NCBI RefSeq assembly: GCF_001909285.1 | Contig: NZ_MRSV01000001.1 | Coordinates: 2,002,556 to 2,066,555, forward strand | DNA from: Exiguobacterium profundum | GTDB taxonomy: Bacteria; Bacillota; Bacilli; Exiguobacteriales; Exiguobacteriaceae | Direction: 5' to 3' | Length of the DNA stretch: 64,000 nt | Shown: positions 35,814 through 39,054 of the stretch, one piece after another | Position numbering within the stretch: the stretch's first letter is position 1 | Layout of the letters: every line of letters starts with the position of its first letter | Program-made: the position numbers and the translations under genes | Notes under the pieces: generated by a model | What the model was told of the DNA's origin: nothing | Databases searched by the model: none | What the model saw: only the letters and a program-made list of their open reading frames with translations

Positions 35814-36197
35814 TTACAAAATTGTATGAGCAATCTCTTCGTAAAGAAGTTGATCGACCTCATTTTGTTCGTTCAACACAGCTACTTTCGGACGATGCGT
35901 TTTTGCCTCTTTCGCTGTCATTTGACCGTAAGCCATGATGATGACAACATCACCGACCTGGAAATGACGTGCTGCCGCTCCGTTCAAACAAATCACGCCT
36001 GAACCGCGTTCCCCTTTGATGACATACGTTTCGATGCGAGCACCATTATGGTTGTTCGTAATGTGTACATGTTCATTCTCCATGATACCCACCGCATCCA
36101 TCAAATCCTCATCGATTGTAATCGAACCGACGTAGTGTAAGTTTGCTTCTGTCACTGTTGCTTTATGAAGCTTTGCGTGCATAAATGTACGAATCAT
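35814..36197 (-). CDS. panD: Aspartate 1-decarboxylase
   Basis: Pyruvoyl enzyme making beta-alanine from aspartate for pantothenate. The 127-residue proenzyme has the self-cleavage site [11 protein letters not shown] (Gly-Ser bond giving the pyruvoyl group) and the conserved [13 protein letters not shown] and [16 protein letters not shown] segments. I choose ATG 36197 ([18 protein letters not shown]), 9 bases after AGAAGGG; the longer ORF from 36218 overlaps panC. The last gene of panBCD. Confidence 0.96.
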
Positions 36198-36202
36198 TGG
36201 AT

Positions 36203-37033
36203 TCATCCCTTCTTCCAAATCACATTATCAATCAATCGGGCCCGTTCAAACTGAATGGCCACCGCTAACAAGAGTTCGGTCGAGTCGCTCGAGACGGCAC
36301 CGAGCGTCGGGTAATCGACAAGCTCGACGTAATCGATTTGACTGTTCGGAATCTCGTTCAAACGTTCAGTCAGCTGTCGTTTTACTTCATCAACTTGTTG
36401 ACCTGTATCGAGTGCTTCTCGCGCCATCGTCAATGCGCTGAAAATCCGACTCGCCTCTACCGTTTCGACATCTGACAAATAGACGTTTCGAGAAGATTTG
36501 GCTAGTCCTGTCTCCTCACGAATAATCGGGCAGCGTCGAATCTCGACTGGAACGAAATAATCTCGGACGTATCCTTCGATGAGTGCCACTTGTTGAGCAT
36601 CCTTCAGACCGAAATAAGCACGTGTCGGTTGAACAAGGTTAAATAATTTTGAAACGATTGTCAACACACCATCAAAATGACCGGGACGACTCGCCCCACA
36701 TAATACGTCCGCCCCGTGATGGACGGTCACACGCGCCATGTCAAGTGGATACATCGTCTCCGTCGTCGGATAGAACAAGACATCGACTCCCGCATCACGT
36801 GCCAACTTCTCATCCCGTTCAAAGTCGCGGGGGTAACGGTCGAGGTCTTCATTCGGTCCGAACTGTGTCGGATTGACAAAAATACTCATGACAACGACGT
36901 CATTTTCCCGTCGCGCGTTTTCAACGAGGCTCATATGTCCTTCATGCAAATATCCCATCGTCGGCACGAAGCCAATCGTTTGATTCGTTGGTAAGGCAAT
37001 ACGTAATTCTTCGACGGTCGATACAATCTTCAT
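36203..37033 (-). CDS. panC: Pantothenate synthetase
   Basis: Joins pantoate and beta-alanine with ATP. The 276-residue protein has the adenylate-forming signatures [16 protein letters not shown] (HxGH), [16 protein letters not shown], and YFGLKDAQQ, and SSRNVYLS in the C-terminal half. The start overlaps the panB stop by 4 bases, and panD follows. Confidence 0.97.
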
Positions 37034-37866
37034 CCTTTTCCTCCATACAATGAGTCGAGTAACGACTCATCCATTGTGAACGTATGACGTTCTAACGGGA
37101 AGTGACCGTTCTTCGTCTCTTCGACATAAGAACGGATAGCATCCGTCGCCACTTCATTCACGTCTGCATACGCTTGGACAAATTTAGGGAGACGGTCCAC
37201 CCCATATTTCAATACGTCATGATAGACGAGCACTTGGCCGTCGACATCTGCACCTGCACCGATTCCGATGACAGGAATCGTCAATTCTTCTGCGATCCGT
37301 TTTGCCAATTGGTGAGGGATACACTCAAGGACGAGCATCTTCGCGCCAGCACGTTCCGCAGCCAAGCTATCTTGAAGGAGTGTCTCGGCAGCCTCTAGGG
37401 ACTTCCCTTGTACTTTATATCCTTCTAGGACGCCAACCGATTGAGGGGTCAACCCTAGATGGGCGACACATGGCATGCCGACTTGTGTCAAGCGGTCAAT
37501 CGTATGAAGCACGTCACCGGCCCCTTCTAGTTTGATGGCATCCGCACGGCCTTCTTGGAATAAACGCGATGCTGCCTGTAACGTCCGATCGAAGTCTCCG
37601 TGATATGACGCAAACGGCATATCTACCACAACGAACGTATTTTGTGCTCCGCGGCGTACCGCTTTCGAATGATGGAGCATGTCCTCCATCGTCACCGGAA
37701 TCGTCGAATCATAACCAAGTACGACCATCCCAAGTGAATCACCTACTAATATCAAATCGACACCGGCCGATTCGGCAAGTTTGGCTGACGGATAATCATA
37801 TGCCGTCAACATGACGAGCTTTTCTTGCTCGTTCATTTTTTTTAACATTGTAGTCATCGTGTGCAT
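37030..37866 (-). CDS. panB: 3-methyl-2-oxobutanoate hydroxymethyltransferase
   Basis: First committed step of pantothenate synthesis, adding a hydroxymethyl group from methylene-THF to ketoisovalerate. The 278-residue TIM-barrel protein has [30 protein letters not shown] and the metal/substrate segments [16 protein letters not shown] and [19 protein letters not shown] 37866 has a near-perfect AAGGAGGAG site 6 bases upstream; the longer open frame to 38064 runs through the leader and lacks support. A 190-base structured leader precedes it. Confidence 0.96.
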
Positions 37867-38060
37867 CTGTTTCTCCTCCTTAACGTGGAGACAGGAAAGA
37901 ATAAACGCCTTCTTACACAGATGGCAAGAAGGCGCACGAAAAACAAATTCATGGTTTTCATGAGTTAGTGTCCTTCTGTCCCTGTCATAATGATCAAGGC
38001 AGACAACTGAATGTGACAGTCTGCAAGCGCGGTACACTTCAAGAATTGATAGCGTCCGAC
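37867..38060 (-). promoter_or_regulatory. Structured mRNA leader of panBCD (possible pan-motif RNA)
   Basis: From the predicted start point near 38060 the leader runs about 190 bases to panB. It contains a hairpin CGCCTTCTT ... AAGAAGGCG (37904-37935 region) followed by a weak T-rich stretch, and a segment GGGACAG(A)AAGGA upstream that can pair with TCTTTCCTGTCTCC just before the ribosome site, an alternative fold. A conserved 'pan motif' RNA is known upstream of panB genes in Firmicutes; I could not confirm its consensus by eye. Confidence 0.4.
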
Positions 38061-38066
38061 ACATTA

Positions 38067-38095
38067 AGTATAGTCGATGGTCTCGCTTTCATCAA
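38067..38095 (-). promoter_or_regulatory. Probable sigma-A promoter of panBCD
   Basis: On the minus strand TTGATG (38090-38095) and TATACT (38067-38072) are 17 bases apart. The -35 box overlaps the birA stop codon, so panBCD can be transcribed apart from bshB1-bshA-cca-birA. Confidence 0.65.
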
Positions 38096-39054
38096 TCATT
38101 CCACACTGCAATCTCAGCAGAATAGACCGGTTCGACCGTTCCATCCACTTCGAGTAGCAGTGCCCCTTCCTCCGAGATGCCTCGCATGACACCTGTTCGC
38201 GATGTCCGGGACACACTCAAGGTGATCGACTCATTTAAATAGGCGGCATGTTTCATCCAGTTCAAGCGAACCGGTGCAAATCCTACGTCAAGGAATCGGT
38301 CGTATTCGGTCTCGAGTTCTGCCAATAGTTCTGCCAATAACTCACTGCGATGATACCTCGTCCCGGTCTCTAAATAAAGGGAGGTCGCCCGGTGCGCCAA
38401 CTCAGTCGGAATGTCATCGCCGTTGACATTCATTCCGAACCCTAAAATGACGGCTTGAATGCGGTCCCCTTCCGTTTGCATTTCCGTCAAAATGCCTCCG
38501 ATTTTCTTGCCATTTAACAGTAAATCGTTAGGCCATTTGATTGTCACGTCAAGGTCCCGCGCATTCAACGCTTTCGCAAACGCACTTGCCGCCATCAAGG
38601 TCAGCTTTGATGCGTCGCGAATGGGTAATTCCGGTCTTAAAATCACACTTGCCGCGATATTGACGTGCTTCGGATTGTGCCAGTTACGACCGAGTTGTCC
38701 GCGACCGGCCGTCTGTTCCTCGCTCATGACGAGCGTCCCCTCTGGCACGTGTTGTTGCGCCAGCTCATGGGCGATTCGTTGTGTCGTGTCGATTTGGTCA
38801 AACGCATGGACGATTTGACCGAACCGTCCCTTCCGATATGACGCAAACGCTGGTTCATCGAATCGGTCACTTTGCTCAAGCAATTGGTATCCTTTTCTTG
38901 GGATCGTATGAATCGCATAACCGTCTTGCTTAAGCGTTTCGATATGTTTCCAAATAGCGGTACGTGAAATATTTAATTGACGGGCCAATTCTTGGCCACT
39001 CCATACTTCACCATCTTGTAATAGCGTCAGAACACGCCCGCGCGTTGAAGCCAT
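38092..39054 (-). CDS. birA: Biotin protein ligase / biotin operon repressor
   Basis: Bifunctional BirA, 320 residues. Residues 1-60 form a winged helix-turn-helix (ELARQLNISRTAIWKHIETLKQDGY), followed by the ligase domain with the biotinyl-AMP loop AGRGQLGRNWHNP, KWPNDLLLNGKKIGGIL and a small C-terminal SH3-like domain (SRTGVMRGISEEGALLLEVDG). It should biotinylate carboxylases and repress biotin genes. It overlaps cca by 28 bases. Confidence 0.95.
   Translation of the reverse strand: MASTRGRVLTLLQDGEVWSGQELARQLNISRTAIWKHIETLKQDGYAIHTIPRKGYQLLEQSDRFDEPAFASYRKGRFGQIVHAFDQIDTTQRIAHELAQQHVPEGTLVMSEEQTAGRGQLGRNWHNPKHVNIAASVILRPELPIRDASKLTLMAASAFAKALNARDLDVTIKWPNDLLLNGKKIGGILTEMQTEGDRIQAVILGFGMNVNGDDIPTELAHRATSLYLETGTRYHRSELLAELLAELETEYDRFLDVGFAPVRLNWMKHAAYLNESITLSVSRTSRTGVMRGISEEGALLLEVDGTVEPVYSAEIAVWND

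Follow-up and report, generated by a model that had tools for sequence, protein, structure and literature searches.

In the window, by which we mean the whole 64,000-nt stretch of DNA analysed here, the pantothenate synthesis genes panB, panC and panD lie behind birA on the minus strand. The question raised by this locus is whether the leader of about 190 nt ahead of panB, which extends from approximately position 38059 to the panB ATG at 37866, is a regulatory RNA and how it might work. The PanB protein of the window is at most 95% identical to named Exiguobacterium records, which places the window in Exiguobacterium. Pfam and NCBIfam families give the gene order birA, leader, panB, panC, panD, with the following features:

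38092–39054, minus strand: birA, biotin protein ligase (TIGR00121), with its stop codon (38094–38092) overlapped by the pan promoter
38067–38095, minus strand: sigma-A-type promoter TTGATG-N17-TATACT (promoter scan and genus alignment), its -35 overlapping the birA stop codon
37030–37866, minus strand: panB, ketopantoate hydroxymethyltransferase (PF02548 and TIGR00222)
36203–37033, minus strand: panC, pantoate-beta-alanine ligase (TIGR00018)
35814–36197, minus strand: panD, aspartate 1-decarboxylase (TIGR00223)

The leader was compared with the RNA families of Rfam, and one of them matches its 5' part:

37972–38058, minus strand: pan motif RNA, RF01749, full length (model positions 1–92 of 92; cmscan, 56.4 bits)
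38030–38058, minus strand: pan hairpin 1 (CGGACGCUAUC...GAAGUGUACCG) with two bulged A residues (Rfam alignment; -8.0 kcal/mol)
37976–38002, minus strand: pan hairpin 2 (CUGCCUUGAUCA...UGACAGGGACAG) with two bulged A residues (Rfam alignment; -10.4 kcal/mol)

The score compares with a gathering cut-off of 36.2 (E = 3.6e-7 for Rfam against the 64-kb window), and pan is the sole Rfam match above gathering in the whole window. At the locus itself no T-box or other Rfam leader family rises above its cut-off; Enterococcus-1 gives a weak match of 19.9 bits against a required 71.4. Score, tandem stems with two bulged A residues each and the place upstream of panB, panC and panD all agree with pan, and the RNA from 38060 to 37850 folds better than 200 of 200 dinucleotide shuffles (z = -3.9). 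Judged by its sequence, the locus is confirmed as a genuine member of this known but unsolved RNA family. The pan motif was described in 2010 by Weinberg et al., with the same tandem bulged-A hairpins at the same place before panB-panC-panD in Firmicutes according to the part of that paper covered here (PMC2864571), and a pan leader was found in the transcriptome of Paenibacillus riograndensis (PMC5670726, likewise in part); in the literature searched, as far as its accessible text extends, only these two papers describe pan.

The source genome holds one copy. All 19 genus genomes examined have a match above the cut-off, as do 159 of 299 genomes in the class and 139 of 398 in the phylum; among 14 control genomes Bacillus subtilis alone gives one. 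From 80 loci returned by a PanB search, 20 outside Exiguobacterium were chosen, and 8 of these carry pan above the cut-off. For the comparisons below we read 194 pan loci, of which 19 come from the genus and the rest from the phylum and class searches; they were picked mostly by score, in the class mostly one per genus, and are thus not a random sample. Two repeat the sequence of another locus, leaving 192 distinct loci, and in 191 of these the A at position -8 of the second hairpin is bulged. At one locus upstream of panB (L218, Terrilactibacillus, 174–106, minus strand), the Rfam Bacillaceae-1 RNA scores just above its cut-off.

The promoter is placed so that transcription would begin with the pan motif. 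Its -35 hexamer TTGATG (38095–38090) and -10 hexamer TATACT (38072–38067) are separated by a 17-nt spacer, and the -10 ends 8 nt ahead of the motif, giving a predicted start at about 38058–38060, that is, at the first pan bases. Among the 19 genus loci the -10 varies between TATACT and TATAAT and the -35 between TTGATG and TTGAAT. Across the family, 120 of 192 loci have a TATAAT-like hexamer ending 4–9 nt before the first pan base, against about 4% of control positions, and 72 of those 120 also match at least four of six -35 bases, which about 14% of control positions achieve. To judge from the position of these hexamers, transcription probably begins with the pan hairpins. The region 37600–38300 contains three promoter-like sites on both strands together, where 1.0 is expected. 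One of them, TTGATA-N17-TATAGT on the plus strand at 38046–38074, overlaps the pan promoter and would read against birA; it arises partly because the -10 of the pan promoter is near-palindromic.

An earlier note made from the sequence alone had proposed a structured leader of about 190 bases, separately promoted by TTGATG-N17-TATACT in the birA stop region and containing a hairpin followed by T-rich sequence, and had named the pan motif as a candidate. All of these elements are present on the minus strand at the places proposed: the Rfam match lies exactly there and well above the gathering score, the structure is borne out by the shuffles and the two aligned hairpins, and the promoter is backed by its sequence and conservation only.

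Downstream of pan, the hairpin that ends in T-rich sequence has the form of an intrinsic terminator:

37895–37935, minus strand: intrinsic terminator, hairpin 37935–37905 plus U-rich tract (terminator scan and strict-terminator comparison)

The hairpin reads CGCCTTCTT and is followed by TTATTCTTTC. Where 0.5 terminator-like sites are expected on both strands of 37600–38300, three were found, the two besides this one lying on the opposite strand. A terminator at this distance is a regular companion of pan. By strict criteria it is found within 170 nt in 171 of 192 pan leaders but in only 38 of 762 control windows taken from these loci, and by loose criteria in 187 of 192 against 236 of 762; the loose finder returned no terminator within 170 nt in the remaining 5.

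Two short segments, one at the end of pan and one in the terminator, could form a pairing that competes with the terminator stem:

37972–37977, minus strand: AGAAGG, the foot of the hairpin 2 3' strand and the unpaired tail; pairs with 37927–37932, proposed 5' half of an antiterminator
37927–37932, minus strand: CCUUCU in the terminator 5' arm (hexamer enrichment), proposed 3' half of the antiterminator

At its 3' end pan consists of the 3' strand of hairpin 2 and a four-base tail; this end reads GACAGAAGG and is complementary to the CCUUCU of the terminator 5' arm, which reads CGCCUUCUU in the window. GGACAC and CGUGCGCC around this pairing are invariant in the genus alignment. With the 5' arm taken together with the two bases before it and four loop bases, and with other terminators of the same loci as controls under equally strict criteria, CCTTCT occurs in 76 of 152 leaders (58 of 134 when the genus is left out) against 4 of 367 control terminators. 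The looser pattern of CCTT with any two pyrimidines after it is found in 116 of 152 against 17 of 367; under looser leader criteria the two counts are 85 and 134 of 187. By eye, CCTTCT is in the terminator arm of 4 of the 8 pan-positive panB loci outside Exiguobacterium (Bacillus methanolicus, Mesobacillus, Desulfosporosinus and Brevibacillus), variant arms CCTCTG and CCGTCTG are seen in Neobacillus and Planococcus, and no such arm hexamer is evident in Chengkuizengella and Terrilactibacillus.

Tails also fit their own arms better than those of other loci, with a complementarity of 5.66 against 5.29 for swapped arms and 5.48 for the highest of 500 swaps, a test that, like the counts by locus, is inflated by shared ancestry, which was handled only roughly. 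In the 88 loci with a tail ending in GG and an arm containing CCTT, tail position -6 and its arm base form A-U in 60, G-C in 17 and G-U in 7, and are unpaired in 4. When loci are grouped by first-gene protein at 70% identity, so that one group can count under several pairs, the numbers become 12 A-U, 14 G-C, 7 G-U and 3 unpaired (A/G by U/C without the 3 unpaired: Fisher p = 1.6e-4). Because position -6 also pairs inside hairpin 2, covariation with the arm is what two exclusive folds sharing one strand predict. The 82 loci with rarer tails do not follow this pattern: their own arms score 4.87, no better than the arms of common-tail loci (4.98).

In energy, the tail-arm duplex has a median of -10.4 in leaders and -7.6 in control terminators, a modest separation that reaches p <= 0.05 in 27 of 187 leaders. 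In the window the simple terminator stem is worth -13.7 kcal/mol and hairpin 2 -10.4, and the antiterminator reaches -6.6; the best leader fold containing the antiterminator has -56.4 against -67.2 overall, so that forcing it costs about 11 kcal/mol. The antiterminator is thus thermodynamically weak, and an exchange of folds would have to be kinetic or helped by a partner. A further candidate helix, GCAGAC with GUCUGC, that would oppose hairpin 2 is identical in the 18 distinct Exiguobacterium loci and beats shuffles in only 1 of them; in the 158 loci outside the genus, shuffles are beaten by the linker in 3 and by the 5' strand of hairpin 1 in 13 (16 of the 192 loci, with no clear hairpin 2 5' strand, were left out), and this helix is not claimed.

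The leader also has the means to reach the panB ribosome site:

37875–37895, minus strand: CCUGUCUCC...GGAGG, possible Shine-Dalgarno-masking stem, CUCC with GGAG (genus alignment and pairing analysis)

The 5' side of this possible stem can instead pair with hairpin 2, GACAGG (37986–37981) with CCUGUC (37895–37890). Among the 98 leaders that stand directly before panB and have a recognisable start and a terminator, the tail and the bases following it pair with the pre-Shine-Dalgarno stretch at 7.33, against a mean of 6.49 and a maximum of 6.79 in 300 swaps, and the pairing reaches p <= 0.05 against shuffled stretches in only 27 of 98. Other groups use other bases: GAUGAAACAA can pair with UUGUUUUAUC (loci L020 and L022) and GGACAGAAGG with CCUUUUGUCC (locus L057 and its relatives). 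In leaders of the GGACCGAGACAGAAGG form, to which the named Brevibacillus locus L231 belongs, no consistent pre-Shine-Dalgarno pairing was seen. The pairing before the ribosome site that the earlier note described exists as sequence in the window and in part of the family. In the covariance test that the note suggested, one informative position favours a switch between hairpin 2 and the antiterminator, but where tails are of the rarer kinds they fit their own arm no better than others.

The genes placed behind pan leaders bear on the signal. The first gene is panB in 105 of the 194 loci, a Rossmann-type reductase in 55, which we read as PanG-like, panC in 16 and another gene in 18. These 18 comprise a PanS-like SBF transporter before panC (4 loci), BioY with an ECF S component and a type III pantothenate kinase (3), an OPT transporter with a type II pantothenate kinase (3; L105, L128 and L129), birA with an ECF S component (2; L034 and L126), an ECF S component (1), an amidohydrolase followed by birA (1), a small zinc-ribbon-like protein (1) and three ORF-caller artefacts or contig ends. 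Families were called on one 160-residue piece per type, for which most NCBIfam whole-protein cut-offs are unreachable, and the rest were grouped by BLAST. The type III kinase is the following gene in L126, and in L034 it lies just past the end of the locus; in both loci birA lies behind the pan leader, and in the window it precedes the leader. Because a pan leader precedes the OPT transporter and its type II pantothenate kinase gene, this transporter is suggested to import a CoA precursor. That synthesis, uptake and kinase genes share the pan leader suggests pantothenate or CoA status as the signal.

Two candidate partners were set aside. CoaX, the type III pantothenate kinase, is present in 172 of 172 pan-positive genomes of the class (lists compared by eye). 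In the phylum, likewise by eye, it occurs in 148 of the 152 genomes with pan and in 210 of the 246 without, four pan-positive phylum genomes giving no CoaX match. None of the 47 class genomes with panB and without CoaX is pan-positive (by eye, two very weak panB matches left out). These 47 come from a small number of families, and one such family (f144) also includes genomes that have CoaX but no pan; the co-occurrence is confounded, and CoaX is not claimed as an RNA-binding partner. In L089, about 91–325 nt after a second pan copy and ahead of opposite-strand genes, lies a gene for a 78-residue zinc-ribbon-like protein with CPKC and CDHC motifs. This protein was dropped as a candidate regulator under its own pan leader: it has no relative in the other 118 of the 119 genomes searched, its Pfam matches are below the cut-offs, and solved structures give one match at E = 0.89.

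The best supported mechanism for the panBCD leader is antitermination, which we consider fairly probable. Membership of the family, the terminator as a sequence, and the complementarity with its enrichment across the family are observed; we infer the exchange of the two folds in the cell, its polarity, in which the effector means OFF, and pantothenate or CoA sufficiency as the signal. The promoter in the birA stop codon would start transcription at about the first pan base, and the two bulged-A hairpins would form first. When the effector holds the pan RNA shut, the 3' strand of hairpin 2 would be unavailable, so that the terminator at 37935–37905 forms and transcription stops; in transcripts that read through, the panB ribosome site could still be masked. 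Without such a hold on the pan RNA, this 3' strand of hairpin 2 and its AGAAGG tail would be free to pair with CCUUCU in the 5' arm of the terminator, and the polymerase would read on. Sufficiency might be read by a dimeric RNA-binding protein or directly.

Other readings of the same leader were weighed against antitermination. The pan hairpins could be a protein operator that represses translation or affects RNA stability, with the terminator as a constitutive damper that does not switch. The original authors took the simple tandem hairpins to suggest a dimeric protein-binding motif, according to the part of PMC2864571 covered here, and the 5 leaders without a terminator together with the better-than-swapped pairing before the panB Shine-Dalgarno sequence agree with such an operator. 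However, that pairing is significant in just over a quarter of the leaders, and a constitutive damper would need neither an arm complementary to the tail, as enriched as CCUUCU is here, nor the exchange of A-U for G-C; we regard this explanation as unlikely. The same anatomy could also run with the opposite polarity, the effector opening hairpin 2 or favouring the antiterminator, since anatomy alone does not fix polarity, and with hairpin 2 and the terminator as the more stable folds a leader left to itself might end transcription by default. Repression by the end product is usual where biosynthesis and uptake genes share one control, and this makes an ON switch improbable in our judgement.

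The resemblance of AGAAGG to a Shine-Dalgarno sequence raises a further reading, a leader-peptide attenuator in which the pan tail serves a short ORF crossing the terminator. Short ORFs starting 4–12 nt behind the tail are indeed found in 67 of 192 loci (35 with ATG), against means of 36 (9 with ATG) at control offsets. Yet, close relatives apart, the 35 ATG-started peptides bear no evident relation to one another; no repeated regulatory codon is apparent in them by eye, their frame changes within Exiguobacterium, and 11 of the 18 distinct Exiguobacterium loci have no such ORF with ATG. Among the ATG-started ORFs no conserved peptide across the terminator was found, the GTG and TTG starts entering only the counts above, and we hold a leader peptide to be highly improbable. 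Promoter and terminator scans do give matches by chance, but the view that hairpin and promoter arose by chance and regulate nothing is in effect refuted by the Rfam score, the conservation throughout the genus and the conserved position of the promoter.

Antitermination by the pan RNA would resemble two kinds of known system. Transcription-terminating riboswitches have a sensor hairpin, a shared strand and a mutually exclusive antiterminator and terminator, as proposed for this leader; in contrast to them, pan has no known ligand, and its sensor may be a protein. PyrR and TRAP leaders are protein-bound RNA attenuators ahead of biosynthesis operons, and pan likewise is a small RNA element before such an operon with a terminator, though one with no identified binding protein. 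The literature searched yielded neither a ligand nor a binding protein for pan and, supplements and most subscription journals excepted, no description of an antiterminator or of transporter and kinase operons behind it. The motif itself is no different from that of PMC2864571, and the expression platform and the transporter and kinase operons are absent from the part of that paper covered here, its additional files apart. The main texts of PMC7266159, PMC13273304 and PMC10043782 do not contain "pantothenate", and the latter two also lack "pan motif". By this measure, the antiterminator proposal and the wider regulon of pan leaders are new here.

Because the proposed antiterminator specifies its bases, a few mutants would be enough to test the pan mechanism, and with transporter and kinase operons among those behind pan, the search for the signal can concentrate on pantothenate or CoA status. 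A wider idea, which we put forward as speculative and rather unlikely, is that in Firmicutes the pan RNA senses CoA or pantothenate and switches all of the pathway, the synthesis, uptake and kinase genes alike. A single strand would then take part in the sensor hairpin, in the antiterminator and, in some lineages, in an element freeing the ribosome site, which would place transcription and translation under joint control. CoA has been discussed as a ligand without a known riboswitch (PMC10043782 and PMC9971707, in the parts covered here), the latter, a 2022 review, stating that no CoA riboswitch is known. If the wider idea is true and the compound is bound directly, the pan RNA would fill this gap of the missing CoA riboswitch.
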